64,000 nucleotides of DNA from Curvibacter delicatus NBRC 14919 (GTDB lineage: Bacteria > Pseudomonadota > Gammaproteobacteria > Burkholderiales > Burkholderiaceae_C), in NCBI RefSeq assembly GCF_001592265.1, contig NZ_BCWP01000005.1:1-64000 (forward strand). Direction: 5' to 3'. Positions 7,512 through 63,899 of the stretch are shown here, piece after piece (position 1 is the first letter of the stretch; the number at the start of each line of letters is the position of its first letter). The notes beneath the pieces were generated by a model. It was given only the letters and a program-made list of their open reading frames with translations, searched no databases and was not told the origin of the DNA. Made by a program: the position numbers and the translations under genes.

Positions 7512-8723
7512 TTACTTCCAGCTCGGCGAGGGCCAGACCAGCTTGGCCGTAGATACCTCGGGCGGCCACACCACGTTGACCTTGCCACCGCTCATCTGCA
7601 CGGTGAAAGCACTGGTGTCAGGGAAGCCGCGCTCATCAAAGGTTACGTCACCAGCGGGCGACTTGATGGTGGCCTTGAACAGTGCTTCCTTGACCTTCTC
7701 GCGGTCGACCACGCCGGCCTTCTCGATACCCTGGATCATGGCCAGGTAAGAGGTGAGACGACCCAGAGTCCAGATGTAGTCGAACATCGAGACGTCGGAA
7801 CGCTTCATCACGGTTTCAACCAGATCGCTGTACGCGCCCTTCACACCGGGGTACCAACTCAGCTCGCCGGTCATGCCATCGATGTCCTTGCCCACTTGGC
7901 GGCTGAGCGCACCGGTCAGCATGGTGTGGTGAACGTCCATCGCGCGCACCTTGAGTTGGCGCATCTGCTGTACGAGCGGAACCGAGGCGTTGTCATAGGA
8001 GCTGATGTAGATCACATCGGCCTTGGCGGCCCGCACCTTGGCAATCAGGGCGGTGAAGTCCTTCAGTTCTGATGAGAAGGTTTCATTGCCCAGCACCTTC
8101 AGGCCCTGCCCCTCGGCCTTCTTACTCCAGGTGGCAGTTATTCCCTTCATCACTGGGTTGTCGTGGGTGATGAAGAAGATGGTTTGCGGCTTGGGACTGA
8201 CCTTGCTCAGCATGTCAAAGTAGCGCGCCGACCAGTTGGGAACCACCGGGAACGGCGTGCCCCAGACGTATTTCAGGCCGCGGTCATAAACCGAGGGCGT
8301 GGCCACGTTCGCCATTACCATCGGAATCTTGTGCTTCTCGGCCACGGGGGGGACCGGGCCACCCAGAGAGGACCAGTCGGGTCCGACGAAGAAGTCCACC
8401 TTGTCCACGGAGGCCATCTTCTCGAATAGGGCTACGGCGGTGGCCGGCACGCTCTGGTCGTCATAGACCACGAATTTCAGAGGAAGCTTTTTGTTGCAGG
8501 CTTTGACCGCAATGCCACCAGCTTTGTTCACCTCCTCGGCGAACACCTCGGTCATCTTGCGCCAGCGGTCAGCCAGCGTGGAAAACGGGCCAGTCTCGGA
8601 GATCGTGGTTCCAAACACGATGGGCTCGCTGCACGAGCCTTGGGCGGCCTGAGCGGGCAACGCGGCCAATCCGGTGGTCAGCGCCGCGGCGCCAGCGGCT
8701 ATTAGATGACTGAGTTTCTTCAT
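7512..8723 (-). CDS. Periplasmic LivK-type substrate-binding protein
   Basis: Type I periplasmic binding protein of 403 residues for the HAAT importer. A Sec signal peptide is visible (MKK, hydrophobic core, cleavage near LPAQA-A), followed by a Leu/Ile/Val-binding-protein fold with GTTISETGPFS near the mature start. An ATG with a GAGGAGAC site just upstream supports the start. It is the first gene of the importer operon. It determines the transported compound, and the sequence resembles receptors for aromatic or small organic acids more than a true amino-acid receptor, but this is only an impression from context. Confidence 0.9.
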   Translation of the reverse strand: MKKLSHLIAAGAAALTTGLAALPAQAAQGSCSEPIVFGTTISETGPFSTLADRWRKMTEVFAEEVNKAGGIAVKACNKKLPLKFVVYDDQSVPATAVALFEKMASVDKVDFFVGPDWSSLGGPVPPVAEKHKIPMVMANVATPSVYDRGLKYVWGTPFPVVPNWSARYFDMLSKVSPKPQTIFFITHDNPVMKGITATWSKKAEGQGLKVLGNETFSSELKDFTALIAKVRAAKADVIYISSYDNASVPLVQQMRQLKVRAMDVHHTMLTGALSRQVGKDIDGMTGELSWYPGVKGAYSDLVETVMKRSDVSMFDYIWTLGRLTSYLAMIQGIEKAGVVDREKVKEALFKATIKSPAGDVTFDERGFPDTSAFTVQMSGGKVNVVWPPEVSTAKLVWPSPSWK

Positions 8724-57508: not shown

Positions 57509-58492
57509 TTACTTGCCGCGGGCCACCGACTCCATGGCGCGCTTTTCCAGGGTCCACTGGTGCATGGAACCGTCGTACAGCTTGGCCTGCTTGTTGCCCA
57601 GCAGTTCGTGCAGCACGAACCAGGTGCCCGAAGCCTGATGGCCGGTGTTGCAGTAGGCGATGGTGGCGGCTTGCGGGTCGACCCCGCTCATCTTGAAGAT
57701 GTCGCGGTAGGTGTCGACCCCCATCAGGCGGGCGGCCTCACCGCCCTGGCTGGACATCAGCGTGGTCGGCACGTTCTTGGCACCCGGCACATGGCCGAAG
57801 GTGCTGACCGAGCCCGGTTTGCTCAAGCCCAGGAAGGTAGCGGTGTCGCGTGCATCCACCAGCTGCGATTTGGCAGCCATGGCCTTCTCGACATCTTCCG
57901 AGCTGGCCGTCAATTCGGCCGAGCGGTCTGCCTGGGCGACCCAGTTGCCTTCCGCGGGCTTGACCGGCGCGTTGGTGACATCGCGGCCTTCGGCAATCCA
58001 GCCGGCGGTGCCGCCGCTGAGCACGGCAATGTTGTCTTCACCGTAGACCTTGAACTGCCAGTACAGACGCGCGGCTTCGTTGAAGTCGATCGGCTCCATG
58101 CCGGCCGAGACCAGCACGATCGGGCGGCCGGCCTGCACGCCCCAGCCACGGGCCAGCTTTTCAAAGTCGGCACGCTCGGGAATCATGCCGCTGAGCTTGA
58201 GGCCGTTGATGACACGCTCGACGCGCACCTTCTTGTTGTCCACCAGCACGGCCTCGGCGATGTGGCCGCCAAGCTCGACCAGGAATTTCTTGCCGGTCTT
58301 CTTGTCGGTTTCGAACTCGGGCATCGCCGTGAACGACTTCTGGTTCGGACGCACATCGAGCACGGTGACATCGGCCCGGTTCTTGGCCAGCCATTCGCCG
58401 TCGACCACCGGGCCGGGCACATTCAGGGCCAGCGCCCACTGGGCCAGGCCCAGCAGGGCCGCGCCGGCAACGAAACGGAAGTGAGTTTTCAT
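57509..58492 (-). CDS. Secreted tandem-rhodanese sulfurtransferase
   Basis: 327-residue protein with a signal peptide (MKTHFRFVAGAALLGLAQWA) and two rhodanese domains; the C-terminal one has the active-site Cys in IAYCNTGHQASG, the N-terminal one lacks it, as in SseA-type enzymes. It should transfer sulfane sulfur (thiosulfate or persulfide) in the periplasm. Last gene of the operon with the DUF6969-like, NPCAG-peptide and YeeE/YedE genes. Confidence 0.92.
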   Translation of the reverse strand: MKTHFRFVAGAALLGLAQWALALNVPGPVVDGEWLAKNRADVTVLDVRPNQKSFTAMPEFETDKKTGKKFLVELGGHIAEAVLVDNKKVRVERVINGLKLSGMIPERADFEKLARGWGVQAGRPIVLVSAGMEPIDFNEAARLYWQFKVYGEDNIAVLSGGTAGWIAEGRDVTNAPVKPAEGNWVAQADRSAELTASSEDVEKAMAAKSQLVDARDTATFLGLSKPGSVSTFGHVPGAKNVPTTLMSSQGGEAARLMGVDTYRDIFKMSGVDPQAATIAYCNTGHQASGTWFVLHELLGNKQAKLYDGSMHQWTLEKRAMESVARGK

Positions 58493-58504: not shown

Positions 58505-59167
58505 TTATGAACGGGAACGGGATGGCTGGCCCGCAACATGCAAGGCATCTTGCGGCCAGTGAACGGGAATGGAACGCCAGACCGCAATACGACGGTCGGC
58601 CCAGGCCTGCTGCACATCAACGCGGTGTCGTGCGCAGTGGCGTGCCAATGCGTCGTCTCGCTGCATCAGCATCTGGCGCAGCGGCGCGGCATAAAAACGC
58701 ACCATGTCGGCCAGCCAGAGGGCGGCACCGGCCAACGGGCCGCGCAGACGCAGCTCGATGCCGGGCAGGCCACGCACCAAGGACTCGGCTGCCATCCAAC
58801 GCTCGCCTGTCACCCACTGGTTGGTGGCGAACCAGGTCAGCGGCAGGCCGCGTGCGTCGAGTGAGAGACCGGCCAGGTGCGACAGGCGCCCTTGCGGGCT
58901 GCGGCGAAACAGGTGGATATGGCCATGCTCGTACGGATGGCGCGCACTGTCTTTTTCAGTTCGGTCATGGGCATGGAAATAGAACTGCCAGCGGCCGGTG
59001 TTGTCCACGACGTCGTGGCGAGGATAGTGCTGCCAGACCTCGAAACGCTGGCTGCGGCCGATGAAGGGGTAGAGCATGGAGCGGCCCTGCTCGGCCAGCC
59101 GCAGTTGCCGGGTCAGCGCAGCACGCGCGGCGTCGGCAACCTTGTGGTGAACCCCTGCGGCGGCCAC
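58505..59167 (-). CDS. DUF6969-like protein
   Basis: 220 residues from GTG 59167 (GGAG six bases upstream). Conserved-looking stretches are FEVWQHYPRHDVVD, YFHAHD, HPYEHGHIHLFRR and TWFATNQWVTGERW, rich in His, Trp and Tyr. These recall the DUF6969 family, which I cannot confirm without a search. No signal peptide. Function unknown. Eleven bp after the NPCAG-peptide gene, which suggests a functional link such as modification or handling of that peptide. Confidence 0.7.
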   Translation of the reverse strand: MAAAGVHHKVADAARAALTRQLRLAEQGRSMLYPFIGRSQRFEVWQHYPRHDVVDNTGRWQFYFHAHDRTEKDSARHPYEHGHIHLFRRSPQGRLSHLAGLSLDARGLPLTWFATNQWVTGERWMAAESLVRGLPGIELRLRGPLAGAALWLADMVRFYAAPLRQMLMQRDDALARHCARHRVDVQQAWADRRIAVWRSIPVHWPQDALHVAGQPSRSRS

Positions 59168-59178
59168 CTCAGCTCCGT

Positions 59179-59484
59179 TTAACGGCTCTTGCCTGCACAG
59201 GGGTTGTCACCACCGCTGCGGCGGCGGGACTTGCCCGCGCAAGGATTGCCGGCACACGGGTTCTCGGCACTGCGCCGGCTTTTGCCGGCACAGGGGTTGC
59301 CAGCGCACGGGTTGTCGGCTCGGCTGCGACGGCGGCTGCCGGCACACGGGTTGCCGCCAGCGCATGGCGCAGCGGCCTTGGCCGGTGCATCGGCGGCCTG
59401 GGCCACGTTGGCGGCCGGCACGGTCAGCAAGGTCATGGCCAGCGCCGAGACCAGTGGGGCCAGGTTGTTGCGGGTACGTTTCAT
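59179..59484 (-). CDS. Secreted cysteine-repeat peptide (NPCAG)n
   Basis: 101 residues. Signal peptide (cleavage near NVAQA-A), then a low-complexity mature part with six NPCAG motifs at residues 45, 58, 63, 75, 80 and 94, plus CAGG at 41: seven Cys at 41, 47, 60, 65, 77, 82 and 96. Spacers are Arg/Ser/Lys-rich (KSRRRSGGD). Small, cationic and periplasmic, it has the look of a metal- or persulfide-binding peptide or a precursor peptide. ATG 59484 was chosen since it begins the signal peptide. Family not known to me; distantly recalls the bufferin and EGKCG repeat groups. Confidence 0.8.
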   Translation of the reverse strand: MKRTRNNLAPLVSALAMTLLTVPAANVAQAADAPAKAAAPCAGGNPCAGSRRRSRADNPCAGNPCAGKSRRSAENPCAGNPCAGKSRRRSGGDNPCAGKSR

Positions 59485-59515
59485 GAAAAAGCTCCTGCCA
59501 AAAAATCGAACAACG

Positions 59516-60094
59516 TCAGACCTGACCGGCGGCACGCGCGCGACGCTCAAACCAGCCGCCGAGGAAGAACACGCCGATGGCAGCCGCCACCAGCACGACC
59601 AGCACCAGCCATTCCGGCACGCCCAGCAGCTCAGGCAGGCGGTCGCCCCGGGTCAACTCGCCCGCGGTGGTGAGCGCATCGAGCTGCGGGAAGAAACCGG
59701 CGAAGAGGTAGGTGCCAATCAGCAGGCCGGCAAAAAACACCAGCGCGTCGATGCGCCCGGTCATCAGGCCCACCGCCGAGGTGCCCGGGCAATAGCCCCC
59801 TACGGCAAAGCCGGCACCGATCAGCGCACCACCAACCGCAATGGCCCAGAGGTAGGGAATGGGCACGTAGACCGATTCGGCATGGACCACACCCGCCTGC
59901 CCCAGCGCGTACAGACCGACCGCCGTGAACACGATGGCGCTGAACATGACCTTGAACACCGACCAGTCGGTCAGGCGGAACTGCGCCGTGAGCTTGCAGC
60001 CGCTGCCAAAGCCGGCACGTTCCAGCACGAAGCCAAAACCGAAACCCAGCAGCACGGCCACCAGCGGACCACCTGCAGCGAACAAACCGTTCAT
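59516..60094 (-). CDS. Half-size YeeE/YedE sulfur transporter subunit (second)
   Basis: 192-residue membrane protein with about five helices and the YeeE/YedE motifs GFGFVLERAGFGSGCKL and GAGFAVGGYCPGTS, each with a conserved Cys. Members import thiosulfate or move sulfur atoms through Cys residues. It overlaps the first half-size gene by 4 bp (ATGA); the two together equal one full-length transporter, as in PmpAB-type pairs. Confidence 0.88.
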   Translation of the reverse strand: MNGLFAAGGPLVAVLLGFGFGFVLERAGFGSGCKLTAQFRLTDWSVFKVMFSAIVFTAVGLYALGQAGVVHAESVYVPIPYLWAIAVGGALIGAGFAVGGYCPGTSAVGLMTGRIDALVFFAGLLIGTYLFAGFFPQLDALTTAGELTRGDRLPELLGVPEWLVLVVLVAAAIGVFFLGGWFERRARAAGQV

Positions 60095-60624
60095 TTGACA
60101 CCTCCACCGCTCAGGCGCGCGGCCACCAGGCCGGCGGCGAAGAAGGCACCGAGGAAAACGAACCCCGCCACACTGAGGACTGCCGCACCCGACAGGCCAA
60201 CGCCACTGGTGCACCCGGCAGCAATGCGCGCGCCAAAGCCCGCCAGGATGCCGCCGGCCAAGGCCTTGATCAGGCGGCCGATGCGGCCGGCACTCGCCTC
60301 ACCTTCAATACGCCATGCCATGCGGCCGGCGAAATAAGCCGACACCAGCGCACCGAGAAAAACGCCCAGCACCTGCCAGGTGATCCAGGACGACAGCACC
60401 GAACCGTCTTCGACCATCGGGCCCAGGTAGTCGTTCGCCAGCGTCCATTGCGGTGCGGCCAGATCGCCCAGCCACGCGCTCAGGCGGGTGGTGAACCCGG
60501 TGGCACCGAGACCATGGCCGGTCAAGATGAACGTCAGCAACAGCACCACGCCCAAGGCCAGGCCAGCGCGCCACGCCGGCCAATAGGGCCGCTGCGGCAG
60601 CCCACATGCATTTGAGTTTTTCAC
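60091..60624 (-). CDS. Half-size YeeE/YedE sulfur transporter subunit (first)
   Basis: 177 residues from GTG 60624 with GGAGACGAA upstream. Hydrophobic, with GGILAGFGARIAAGCTSGVG, the Cys-containing YeeE/YedE signature. First gene of the five-gene operon that contains the NPCAG peptide. The promoter and a GC-rich palindrome lie 30-80 bp upstream. Confidence 0.88.
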   Translation of the reverse strand: MKNSNACGLPQRPYWPAWRAGLALGVVLLLTFILTGHGLGATGFTTRLSAWLGDLAAPQWTLANDYLGPMVEDGSVLSSWITWQVLGVFLGALVSAYFAGRMAWRIEGEASAGRIGRLIKALAGGILAGFGARIAAGCTSGVGLSGAAVLSVAGFVFLGAFFAAGLVAARLSGGGVK

Positions 60625-60760: not shown

Positions 60761-61264
60761 TCAACGCAGTGCGGCGCGGGCCTGCTGAATCCGGTCGTCG
60801 AGGTAGGCGCCATAGAAATCGGGGATGTAACCTCCGACCAGCCGCTCGGCCACCTCCTCGCCATCGCGCCCCAGGAACAGGACCGTGGGGGCGATGCGGA
60901 TGCGCCACTGGCGGATCATGTCGTCGTGGGTGGTGCTGTCGCCGCGGAAGTTCTTCAGCGCACGTTTGCTGCGCATATCGACCTGCACCACCGGCAAACC
61001 CTGTTGCCGGCGCAAGGGGCCGAGGTAGTTCTCGCGCGCCACCTTGCAGAAAGGGCAGCCTTCCAAGCTGACCATCACCACCAACGGTTGTCCCTTTTTC
61101 AGGGCCTGCGCCAGTTCATCCTGCAGCGATTCAGCCAGGGGCAAGATGGCCGGCGAAGCCCACGCCGCGCCCGTGGCACACACAGCAGCACCGGCCAGCA
61201 GCCAGTCTCGGCGCGACAAACCGTGGCCCGCCAAAGGGGCAGAGGTGAGTGTCGGGTTCATCAT
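60761..61264 (-). CDS. Periplasmic thioredoxin-like protein (SoxW-like)
   Basis: 167 residues. Twin-Arg-like signal SRRDWLLAGAAV, cleavage near AWA-S, then a thioredoxin fold with the redox motif EGCPFCKVAR and IAPTVLFLGRDG (cis-Pro). Such proteins keep SoxYZ or other sulfur-binding Cys reduced. Coupled by a 4-bp overlap to the SoxH-like gene. Confidence 0.88.
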   Translation of the reverse strand: MMNPTLTSAPLAGHGLSRRDWLLAGAAVCATGAAWASPAILPLAESLQDELAQALKKGQPLVVMVSLEGCPFCKVARENYLGPLRRQQGLPVVQVDMRSKRALKNFRGDSTTHDDMIRQWRIRIAPTVLFLGRDGEEVAERLVGGYIPDFYGAYLDDRIQQARAALR

Positions 61265-62226
61265 CGCGCTTCCTGTTCAAGCAGCAGATAGGTGTTGTAG
61301 GCATTCATGCGGTTGGCAACACGGAACAGCGGCAGGTGTTCGAACTGGCTCCAGTCGGTGTTCTTGTAGGCGTCCTCGAAGGGCTCCAGATTCTGCGCTG
61401 CCCGGCCCATGCTCTCGCGCAGGTAGACCAGGTAATCGCGCGTGAGCTGCATGTCCTTGCGCGCCTCATGCGACAGTGGGCCATGTCCGGGCACGATGAC
61501 GACGGCGTCAAACGCCAGCAGCTTGTCCAGCGCCGCGATCCAGTGCCGGCTGTCAGCCTGCCCCACATAGGGGATGCGGCTGCGAAACACCAGATCGCCG
61601 GCAAACAGCACCTTCTCGCTTGGCAGATAAACCGCCAGGTCTTCCGGTGTGTGTGAAGGGCCGACCGGCTTGATCTGGAACTGCACGCCACCGACCGTCA
61701 GGTTCTTCTCGCCATCGATCCACTCGTCCGCCTCGACCAGGTGCGTGTCGTCATTGACCCACGGCGCCAGCTCCTGGCGCGACACTTCCAGCCGCAGGCG
61801 GGCTGTGTCGGAGTTCAGGTACACCTTGGCCGCCTGGTGCGCAATGATGCGCGCGCCTAGCGCCTTGAAGGCCTGCAGGCCATAGATGTGGTCGGCGTGG
61901 TAATGGGTGACGATCACATGGGTGATGGGCTGAGAGGTGTGCTTGCGAATTTCCGCCACCAGCCGCGTGGCCAGCGCCGGCGAGCCCAAGGCGTCGATGA
62001 CGACCACACCAGCCGGCGTCACGACGAAAGCCGCATTGGAAATGAAATTCTGGTTGGCCGGCGAGCCGAGTGCTGACACGCCTTCAACATACCAGGCCGA
62101 GGGGGAGACCTGCTGCGCCACCATGGGCGGAGCCTCGTCGGCGCAGGCCAGCACCACGCTCAGTGCCAGCCCCAGGCCTGCCAGCGCCCGGGCCAAGAAA
62201 GTCGTTTTTGTCTTTGTCATACCCAT
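61261..62226 (-). CDS. SoxH-like metallo-beta-lactamase-fold hydrolase
   Basis: About 321 residues with a signal peptide (cleavage near VLACA-D). The metal site is complete: THYHADHIYG, GPSHTPEDL, FAGDLVF and VPGHG. This matches the SoxH/quinoprotein-relay-like subgroup that accompanies sulfur or methanol oxidation genes; the substrate is unsettled, possibly thiol esters or persulfides. ATG 62226 or 62220. Confidence 0.88.
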   Translation of the reverse strand: MGMTKTKTTFLARALAGLGLALSVVLACADEAPPMVAQQVSPSAWYVEGVSALGSPANQNFISNAAFVVTPAGVVVIDALGSPALATRLVAEIRKHTSQPITHVIVTHYHADHIYGLQAFKALGARIIAHQAAKVYLNSDTARLRLEVSRQELAPWVNDDTHLVEADEWIDGEKNLTVGGVQFQIKPVGPSHTPEDLAVYLPSEKVLFAGDLVFRSRIPYVGQADSRHWIAALDKLLAFDAVVIVPGHGPLSHEARKDMQLTRDYLVYLRESMGRAAQNLEPFEDAYKNTDWSQFEHLPLFRVANRMNAYNTYLLLEQEAR

Positions 62227-62347
62227 TCGATCTTCTACCCCGCCATTCTTGTATTGCATGCCACCAGTGCTTGAGGAAGATCAAGTTTGACAGGGACAAT
62301 TAAATTACCATCCAATATAAGCAAATACTAAATTATGGGATGGCCCC

Positions 62348-63454
62348 ATGGATCTGGCAACCCTACTTGAACAATATGGCGAGAGCATTCTCCTGGCGAC
62401 GGGAGGACTTTGCATCGGTGCCCTGTTCGGCTTTTTTGCCCAGCGCTCCAAGTTCTGCCTGCGTGCAGCCGTCATCGAGTTCTGGCATCACAAATTTGGC
62501 GAAAAGCTCTCGGTCTGGCTGCTGGCCTTTTCCACCGCCGTGGTGGTGGTGCAGGCACTCATCCTCTTGCATTCGCTGGATGTCAGCACGTCCCGGCAGA
62601 TCGCCTCGCGCGGCAGCCTCTCGGGGGCGTTGATCGGCGGCCTGCTGTTCGGTGCCGGCATGATCATGACGCGGGGTTGCGCCAGCCGTCTGCTCGTCCT
62701 TTCCGCGAACGGCAATCTGCGCGCCCTGCTCTCGGGCCTGATCTTTGCCGTGACGGCACAGGCGGCGCTGTCGGGCTCGCTCGCGCCCTTGCGCAACACC
62801 ATCAGCGCCTGGTGGACCGTGGAGGGTGGCCCCACGCGCGACCTGCTCGCCATCACAGGTGCCGGCCACTGGGGTGGCCTGCTCTTCGGTGTGGTGTGGC
62901 TGGTGGCCGCGCTTTACTTTTCGGTGCGCAGCGGCTGGGGCTTCTGGAAATGGGTTGGCGGCATTGGCACCGGGTTGATGGTGGCAGCGGGCTGGTACTA
63001 CACCTACCTGATCTCGTCCAATTCCTTCAATGTGGTGCAGGTGCAGGGCCTGACCTTCAGTGGCCCGTCAGCCGAATGGCTGATGCGGGTGTTGTCGTCT
63101 CCCGGGCCGGCCATCGGCTTCGACTTCGGCCTTTTGCCTGGCGTGTTCGCCGGCTCGTTCATCGGCGCCTGGATCGGGAAAGACTTCCAGCTGGAGGGCT
63201 TCAAGGACGGCTACAGCATGCGCCGCTACATTGTCGGCGCCATGTTCATGGGCTTCGGCTCGATGCTGGCCGGCGGCTGCGCCGTGGGGGCTGGCATGAC
63301 CGGGGGTTCGATCTTCGCACTGACCGCCTGGGTGGCACTCATCGGCATGTGGGCCGGTGCCGGCATCACCGACCGCCTGCTGGACAACAAAACCGCCGCG
63401 CCCCAGCCGAGCGACCGCGTGACCAACACCCAGGCCCAGATGCAGGCGCCTTGA
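62348..63454 (+). CDS. Full-length YeeE/YedE sulfur transporter
   Basis: 368-residue membrane protein with about ten helices and repeated Cys signatures: AQRSKFCLRAAV, MTRGCASRLL and LAGGCAVGAGMTGGS. This is the TsuA/YeeE layout, probably importing thiosulfate or exchanging sulfane sulfur. Divergent from the SoxH-like gene; the 121-bp gap is AT-rich and contains TTGACA at 62287. A cytochrome gene follows. Confidence 0.92.
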   Translation: MDLATLLEQYGESILLATGGLCIGALFGFFAQRSKFCLRAAVIEFWHHKFGEKLSVWLLAFSTAVVVVQALILLHSLDVSTSRQIASRGSLSGALIGGLLFGAGMIMTRGCASRLLVLSANGNLRALLSGLIFAVTAQAALSGSLAPLRNTISAWWTVEGGPTRDLLAITGAGHWGGLLFGVVWLVAALYFSVRSGWGFWKWVGGIGTGLMVAAGWYYTYLISSNSFNVVQVQGLTFSGPSAEWLMRVLSSPGPAIGFDFGLLPGVFAGSFIGAWIGKDFQLEGFKDGYSMRRYIVGAMFMGFGSMLAGGCAVGAGMTGGSIFALTAWVALIGMWAGAGITDRLLDNKTAAPQPSDRVTNTQAQMQAP

Positions 63455-63572
63455 AAGCTGCTCGCAAGAAGTACCCGTTAATATTTTGAGGGTAAACACC
63501 CGGGACAATCGGCCGCCGGCTGATTACATTAGCCCCGAGTGATATTTCGTGAACCCCAAGAAGGAGACCCTC

Positions 63573-63899
63573 ATGCGCCTCAAGAGCCCATTCGTGGCGG
63601 TGCTGTTGTCAGGCATCGCTGCCACTGCTGTCAACGCGGCGACACCCAAGGACACCGTCAACCTGCACCAGCGCGCGCTCGCCGCCATGTGCGCCAACTG
63701 CCACGGCACCGAAGGCCGTACCACCGATGGCTCAGCTATCCCCTCGCTGGCAGGCATGCCGCGCGAGTACATGGTGGCGCAGATGAAGGCCTTCCGTGAA
63801 GGGACCCGCCCGGCGACCGTGATGCACCAGTTGACCAAGGGCCTGACGGAAGAACAGGTCCAGTCGGTCTCCACCTATTTCTCGACCCTCAAACGCTGA
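63573..63899 (+). CDS. Monohaem c-type cytochrome
   Basis: 108 residues; signal peptide (cleavage near AVNA-A), haem motif CANCH with GTEGR after it, and an axial Met probable in AGMPREYM. ATG 63573 has AAGGAGACC upstream. Small single-haem cytochromes like this are the FccA/SoxE subunit of flavocytochrome c sulfide dehydrogenase, which fits the following gene. Confidence 0.9.
   Translation: MRLKSPFVAVLLSGIAATAVNAATPKDTVNLHQRALAAMCANCHGTEGRTTDGSAIPSLAGMPREYMVAQMKAFREGTRPATVMHQLTKGLTEEQVQSVSTYFSTLKR

Follow-up and report, generated by a model that had tools for sequence, protein, structure and literature searches.

Among periplasmic sulfur carriers, the SoxY arm holds its Cys within a small flexible motif. 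Exported Cys-rich peptides are also tied to copper protection, as two reports describe for the MNIO-modified bufferins and captophorins (PMC12452194, PMC13097082). According to these reports, sigma-factor genes occur in bufferin clusters and Buf1 can be fused to cytochrome c (PMC12452194), and captophorins have Lys-Cys precursors (PMC13097082). Here we describe a locus of Curvibacter delicatus NBRC 14919 at which an exported Cys-repeat peptide is encoded beside a DUF6969 protein and among sulfur genes. The arrangement hints at a hitherto undescribed route to carriers of sulfur or metal that are based on cysteine.

Within the window (the whole stretch of DNA analyzed, 64,000 nt), the genes run on the minus strand from 62259 to 57509 in the order metallo-beta-lactamase-fold protein, thioredoxin-like protein, two half-size YeeE proteins, NPCAG peptide, DUF6969 and secreted rhodanese (Table 1). 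A sequence-only reading had described an exported peptide of 101 residues that contains seven Cys and six NPCAG motifs, encoded between two half-size YeeE genes and those for a DUF6969-like protein and a secreted rhodanese; the peptide stands as described, and Pfam bears out its neighbors. The two PF04143 halves lie side by side (53.3 and 73.1 bits against a cut-off of 27, covering profile positions 2-149 and 176-308) and, judged by these matches, correspond to a half-size YeeE pair as defined for PmpAB. The peptide stop and the GTG of DUF6969 are 11 bases apart, a Shine-Dalgarno-like stretch was seen ahead of all five starts examined, and the thioredoxin-like gene may belong to the same transcript as the YeeE and peptide genes. 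Beyond the window end, the c-type cytochrome gene is followed by genes for the flavoprotein of flavocytochrome c sulfide dehydrogenase (FccB), an exported-looking DsrE-like protein and an ArsR regulator, the run as a whole occupying contig positions 63549 to 66169 (L217). Two SoxY matches are found elsewhere in the genome, and the locus looks like a sulfur-oxidation island.

Table 1. Positions of the C. delicatus genes (window numbering) and of features at comparison loci (numbering of the named locus).
Feature	Position	Strand	Remarks
Secreted rhodanese	57509..58492	minus	two stretches matched; single Cys281 in CNTGHQ loop, C-terminal domain
DUF6969 (PF22308)	58505..59167	minus	GTG start; candidate cytosolic metalloenzyme
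NPCAG-repeat exported peptide	59179..59484	minus	from ATG at 59484 to stop at 59179; 101 aa with 7 Cys; Cys motifs separated by basic linkers
Half-size YeeE/YedE, PmpB-like	59516..60094	minus	N-terminal half of PF04143; naming after PMC11582611
Half-size YeeE/YedE, PmpA-like	60091..60624	minus	C-terminal half of PF04143; GTG start
Thioredoxin-like protein with CPFC	60761..61264	minus	upstream of half-size YeeE pair, gap 136 bases
Metallo-beta-lactamase-fold protein	61261..62259	minus	relative of SoxH-type quinoprotein relay hydrolases that scores under the curated cut-offs for them
Full-length YeeE/YedE transporter	62348..63454	plus	divergent
c-type cytochrome	63549..63899	plus	followed by sulfide-dehydrogenase flavoprotein past window end
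SoxA/TsdA-type cytochrome c domain with NPC repeats	L022 7189-7974; L071 5928-6668; L132 7636-8277; others		
Rhodanese, full-length YeeE and NPC-repeat peptide	L144 9096-11839; L145 6443-9299	one strand	DUF6969 elsewhere in genome
Consecutive genes for MNIO, DUF2063, DoxX, a KCGAK-repeat peptide and DUF6969	L192 4647-8162	one strand	one genome

The peptide combines a Sec-type signal with repeated Cys motifs, as found by reading and by a crude rule, and its 71-residue mature part (cleavage placed by eye; the signal peptides of peptide and rhodanese were called by eye rather than with a predictor) contains 7 Cys, 10 Arg, 4 Lys, 3 Asp and 1 Glu. The NPCAG motifs are partly paired and basic linkers separate them. 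The Pfam search returned no family and no SoxY domain for the peptide up to E 1. It is the sole frame in the window with at least two NPC, and two NPCAG motifs were never reached in 200,000 shuffles of the mature peptide. Since five different codon sets occur among the six NPCAG copies, the repeat is not a DNA microsatellite read by chance. Furthermore, nonsynonymous distances between five orthologs from one genus of another family (0.006-0.073 over ten pairs) are far below the synonymous ones (0.33-1.70 in eight of the ten pairs, beyond correction in two), indicating strong purifying selection on the peptide gene.

DUF6969 was found in 20 of 398 genomes drawn across the phylum and in 25 of 399 drawn from the order; with five genomes common to both draws, this gave 40 genomes and 42 DUF6969 loci, around each of which up to about 18 kb was fetched where the contig allowed, C. 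delicatus being represented by the window itself. An exported Cys-repeat ORF was defined by a hydrophobic start after K/R, a remainder with at least four Cys and at least 5% Cys, and one Cys tripeptide present at least three times. The DUF6969 core was placed automatically in 38 loci, and 30 of these have such an ORF no more than 2.5 kb from it (L182-L184 and L215 fall outside, the core expression being unmatched). Reading added eight loci, namely L176, L189 and L211 (NPC), L151 (a weak Cys repeat), L182-L184 (KC) and L215 (NPC, with a truncated DUF6969 match), so that 38 of the 42 loci encode an exported Cys-repeat peptide at a distance of up to about 2.5 kb from DUF6969. No such peptide was seen near DUF6969 at L146, L150, L186 and L208. 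At L208, DUF6969 lies at a contig end and NPC repeats occur on another contig of the same genome; at L146 and L150 a peptide may have been overlooked because our script's home-made codon-score gene caller performs poorly in high-GC loci such as these. Rule-positive ORFs number 35 in 183 kb near DUF6969 as against 2 in 400 kb further out, an enrichment of about 38-fold.

For most of the peptides, the gene lies immediately upstream of DUF6969; for some, it is 1-2 kb distant or on the opposite strand (L147-L149), and at L175 the adjoining peptide (8376-8717) has a different repeat, PCVKTKAGGLA. In a second set, the nearest 80 of at least 567 relatives of one central DUF6969, which partly overlaps the 42 loci, an ORF with at least two NPC lies within 8 kb in 58 loci. 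Many of these genomes are related, hence the locus counts overstate the number of independent events. The exported Cys-repeat peptide and DUF6969 constitute a recurrent module of the phylum and not a local oddity. The conserved co-occurrence on which the sequence-only reading had been staked thus holds: Cys-repeat peptides accompany DUF6969 across the phylum, and YeeE and rhodanese join them in the DUF6969 clade of C. delicatus and in two Thalassospira-like genomes. Other neighbors are less constant. An exported-looking sulfatase-modifying-factor (FGE) protein is encoded near DUF6969 at L094 (6978-7841) and in 20 of the 80 loci, versus four of the 42. The signal regions revealed no shared leader, the NPC proteins (mean identity 0.237 and 0.264, some windows having been wrongly taken from the cytochrome domain) being no more alike than other exported neighbors (controls 0.211 to 0.379; cross-family background 0.236).

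Phylogenetic analysis revealed that the class of peptide follows the DUF6969 tree. For 40 DUF6969 proteins, 35 of them labelled as NPC (24), KC (8) or other (3), the peptide class requires two changes, the minimum possible, whereas labels shuffled 500 times needed 10.2 changes on average and at least six; the classes were set by eye and many of the genomes are related. An earlier tree of 39 proteins also required two changes. G484 and G406 were left out of both trees and G333 out of the first, and G396 entered as 'none', a Cys peptide having been read there later. All eight KC rows fall together (SH-aLRT 90). Some placements are unsure because of long branches, that of the C. delicatus protein included. 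This congruence shows that the pair travels together, for which co-inheritance in an operon alone would suffice.

The C. delicatus DUF6969 protein matches PF22308 at 155.9 bits (Pfam cut-off 27). Using its numbering, H65, H67, H83, H85, H97, N116 and R170 are invariant over 40 rows, a partly circular set in that, like the rows of the 40-protein tree, it was collected with a regular expression asking for part of the His and N-x-W-V pattern, and one from which the truncated match of G406 was left out; H47 is kept in 39 of these rows, E80 is lost in four and H81 in five. The five His, the Asn and the Arg are also invariant in a 21-row alignment from the phylum draw, which was assembled by HMM match alone with no regular expression and in which 13 columns never vary (P, H, H, E, G, H, H, H, F, N, V, R, D). 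No Cys is conserved across the 40 rows, and Cys178, the single Cys of the C. delicatus protein, falls in no conserved column. In 73-row alignments made up largely of the main DUF6969 clade, however, one Cys hardly varies, so that the protein may have a thiol role there.

AlphaFold models of the C. delicatus protein and of the central member reached pLDDT values of 89.5 and 95.5. Compared with the PDB, neither model gave a significant match: their best Foldseek E-values were 0.039 and 0.87 and their best VIA Z-scores 4.2 and 3.4, and no fold family stood out among the best 50 of 392 and the best 50 of 287 weak Foldseek matches (E up to 10) or among 994 and 996 realigned chains. A sequence search of the PDB gave two matches (E 0.27 and 1.6). 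Such weak matches do not amount to proof of a new fold. In the central model, DSSP assigns H56 and H58 to one strand and H65, H67 and H69 to the next with a two-residue turn between, and cross-strand pairing should place all five His on one face of the predicted beta-hairpin. Four of the five belong to the never-varying set, and H65 is the counterpart of H81 in C. delicatus. On these models, the conserved His cluster looks like a putative metal site. No signal peptide was seen in DUF6969 whereas the precursor is exported, and DUF6969 would therefore act before export.

The genomic setting of the C. delicatus clade includes sulfur genes. The arrangement of PmpA-like, PmpB-like, peptide, DUF6969 and rhodanese genes is also present at L173, L176, L177 and L201-L204, and the cassette recurs in other families of the order; at L179 the stretch ends within DUF6969 of an otherwise similar cassette, and L211, from another class, carries the same cassette but with a full-length YeeE. 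PmpA-like, PmpB-like and rhodanese genes each occur in eight of the 41 further loci; of the 80 loci that represent the main DUF6969 clade, one has the PmpA-like gene and none has the PmpB-like or the rhodanese gene. In the two Thalassospira-like genomes (genus code g171), rhodanese, YeeE and NPC peptide genes adjoin one another on one strand at a site apart from DUF6969, and another NPC peptide gene lies 1.5-2 kb from DUF6969. The FGE gene of a third genome with that genus code shares 99% identity with its counterpart in Thalassospira profundimaris (L094). Of the stretches fetched around DUF6969, 14 of 42 and 13 of 80 contain a YeeE gene of any type; of 100 whole genomes of the phylum, 40 have one. 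Taken together, the cassette, the Thalassospira-like neighbors, the YeeE frequency and the fusions of NPC repeats to SoxA/TsdA cytochromes favor, without proving, sulfane sulfur as the cargo of the peptide in the C. delicatus clade.

In these fusions, NPC repeats flank a cytochrome c domain that Pfam assigns to SoxA/TsdA (36.5 and 54.2 bits for two proteins, cut-off 27); the repeats are N-terminal of the domain and, mostly in the aligned proteins from DUF6969 loci, C-terminal as well. A 23-member alignment of the domain has one invariant Cys besides CxxCH. In a HMMER comparison this residue aligns with a Cys of 1h31 chain A, a diheme cytochrome which we take to be SoxA, but the match is weak (E 0.00034 for the chain, 0.031 for the stretch) and other c-type cytochromes score as well. 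At L037 (6807-7814) an NPC-repeat protein is fused to a cytochrome P460 domain, with similar proteins seen by eye at L050, L054 and L087.

NPC repeats can exist without DUF6969, since 17 of the 24 genomes (among 398) matched by an NPCAAK peptide query lack it, three of the 17 showing only two NPC. The figure of 24 is a lower bound because the query misses NPCAG and NPCGP peptides, C. delicatus itself being unmatched. Matches were obtained in seven of 20 genomes with DUF6969 versus 17 of 378 others. In one family (code f39), NPC peptides and NPC-SoxA/TsdA cytochromes adjoin genes for radical SAM/DUF3641, a methyltransferase and a multiheme cytochrome (by reading, and by Pfam for one locus). The NPC peptide genes beside radical SAM/DUF3641 and methyltransferase genes at L132, L133, L134, L139 and L140 are from genomes of this family that lack DUF6969. 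A radical SAM/DUF3641 gene lies near five of 14 NPC loci without a local DUF6969, and near one of 42 and six of 80 DUF6969 loci. Either this family relies on another enzyme, for which the radical SAM/DUF3641 and methyltransferase genes are candidates, or NPC repeats need no DUF6969.

It is tempting to speculate on how the pair works. The reading that we prefer, while granting it slightly less than an even chance, is that DUF6969 is a cytosolic metalloenzyme maturing Cys-repeat precursors before export, the product at this locus carrying periplasmic sulfane sulfur. The C. delicatus locus would then be one member of a widespread two-gene module of exported Cys-repeat precursor and DUF6969. DUF6969, most likely a His-ligated metalloenzyme of the cytosol, would bind the precursor and change its repeated Cys motifs, here N-P-C-A-G, ahead of Sec export, and the matured peptide would serve as a periplasmic multi-cysteine carrier. 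In the C. delicatus clade its cargo would most likely be sulfane sulfur, passed between the secreted rhodanese (together with the nearby sulfide dehydrogenase) and the half-YeeE pair acting as importer. The cargo may differ between DUF6969 clades, because their YeeE, FGE, sigma-factor and cytochrome neighbors differ. Best supported are the sulfur context of the C. delicatus locus and, for DUF6969 in general, the relation of a precursor to its partner.

The peptide might instead, like the bufferins, buffer copper or some other thiophilic metal in the periplasm and be matured by DUF6969, the sulfur genes then reflecting a use of sulfide or polysulfide against the metal. We regard this as unlikely, though a serious contender. 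The KC-type peptides found with DUF6969 resemble captophorin Lys-Cys precursors as described in PMC13097082; at L192, DUF6969 stands in one row with MNIO, DUF2063, DoxX and a KCGAK peptide; and 12 of 42 and 15 of 80 DUF6969 loci have a sigma-70-type factor gene in the stretch taken, sigma-factor genes being found in bufferin clusters too (PMC12452194). The L192 row and the sigma-factor neighbors do indicate that DUF6969 can sit in a bufferin-like cluster. Against a metal buffer in C. delicatus stand the sulfur genes of its clade, the lack of any metal transporter among the window and flank genes scanned, and a genome, rated 100% complete, with no match to MNIO (DUF692, PF05114). The absence of MNIO means that this is not a bufferin system; together with the failure of the BufA2 model to match the peptide (15.4 bits, cut-off 60), it rules out membership of that family. 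Hence the sequence-only reading's analogy to bufferins applies to the layout of the locus and fails as to family. MNIO is likewise absent from 23 of the 40 DUF6969 genomes (C. delicatus included), 17 having at least one; it was found in none of the 17 NPC genomes without DUF6969 and in none of three KC genomes (G521, G605 and G763).

Other explanations leave the peptide unmodified or deny it a function. DUF6969 could escort the peptide, load a metal or cofactor, or keep the thiols reduced and unfolded until export, the peptide then working as it is made; NPC proteins that occur without DUF6969 and signal regions in which no leader motif was detected speak for such a role, but a never-varying set of several His, an Asn and an Arg would be expected of a catalytic or metal site rather than a chaperone surface, and we consider such a role rather improbable. 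A very improbable variant has DUF6969 acting on a small sulfur compound or on a cytochrome, the unmodified peptide being its acceptor or redox partner: the cytochrome, thioredoxin, YeeE and rhodanese genes that recur nearby would fit, yet the peptide is the most constant neighbor across clades in which the others differ. That the repeat originated as chance low-complexity sequence beside a conserved gene is scarcely credible, for although the repeats are short and of low complexity, purifying selection, local enrichment near DUF6969 and shuffles devoid of repeated NPCAG all oppose it. Together with the codon sets, these observations rule out a chance repeat or DNA microsatellite.

Maturation by DUF6969 can be extended to a broader proposal, one that we hold with more doubt than belief. 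DUF6969 would represent a new, non-MNIO class of precursor-maturing metalloenzyme, of a fold absent from the PDB, that rewrites the Cys of x-P-C and K-C repeats, in exported peptides and in cytochromes too, yielding polythiol-derived periplasmic carriers for sulfane sulfur and metals in alpha-, beta- and gammaproteobacteria. If true, this would be a second, non-MNIO route to Cys-derived metallophores or sulfur carriers, a candidate for the unexplained step that presents periplasmic sulfane sulfur to YeeE-type importers, and the first function for PF22308. If DUF6969 does not modify the peptide, the novelty reduces to a new family of exported Cys peptides. The gene pair is easily found, and cultured species have it; a peptide and its DUF6969 are also encoded in Denitromonas halophila (L073) and Thalassospira profundimaris (L094). 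Within the open literature that we searched, we found no description of a module of exported Cys-repeat peptide and DUF6969 and no mention of DUF6969 or NPCAAK, and NPCAG appeared only in unrelated contexts; the system would be new in kind, since neither peptide nor partner belongs to any described system that we found.

By analogy, the peptide and DUF6969 may work like a precursor and its dedicated cytosolic partner outside the bufferin family. With bufferins and captophorins the C. delicatus system shares Sec-exported precursors bearing Cys motifs and a dedicated cytosolic protein encoded nearby, and the sigma-factor neighbors of some loci and the cytochrome c fusions are likewise common to these peptides and to the DUF6969/NPC systems. 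Bufferins, however, have a DUF692/DUF2063 partner and EGKCG or DUF2282, whereas C. delicatus has a DUF6969 partner, NPC motifs and a sulfur context. Sulfur import by PmpAB or YeeE-SoxT shares with the locus the half-size YeeE pair, rhodanese, ArsR regulator and sulfur-oxidation genes; unlike the C. delicatus locus, those modules include no Cys-repeat peptide or DUF6969 named in the accessible part of PMC11582611. The SoxA/TsdA cytochromes are linked to the system by the larger NPC-repeat proteins that carry their domain, and differ in that the C. delicatus peptide has no heme domain. Finally, SoxYZ and other periplasmic sulfur carriers resemble the peptide in placing Cys in a small flexible motif, in the periplasm and with sulfur enzymes near; but SoxYZ offers one Cys arm, whereas the NPCAG peptide, itself without a Pfam match, presents seven Cys in repeats.
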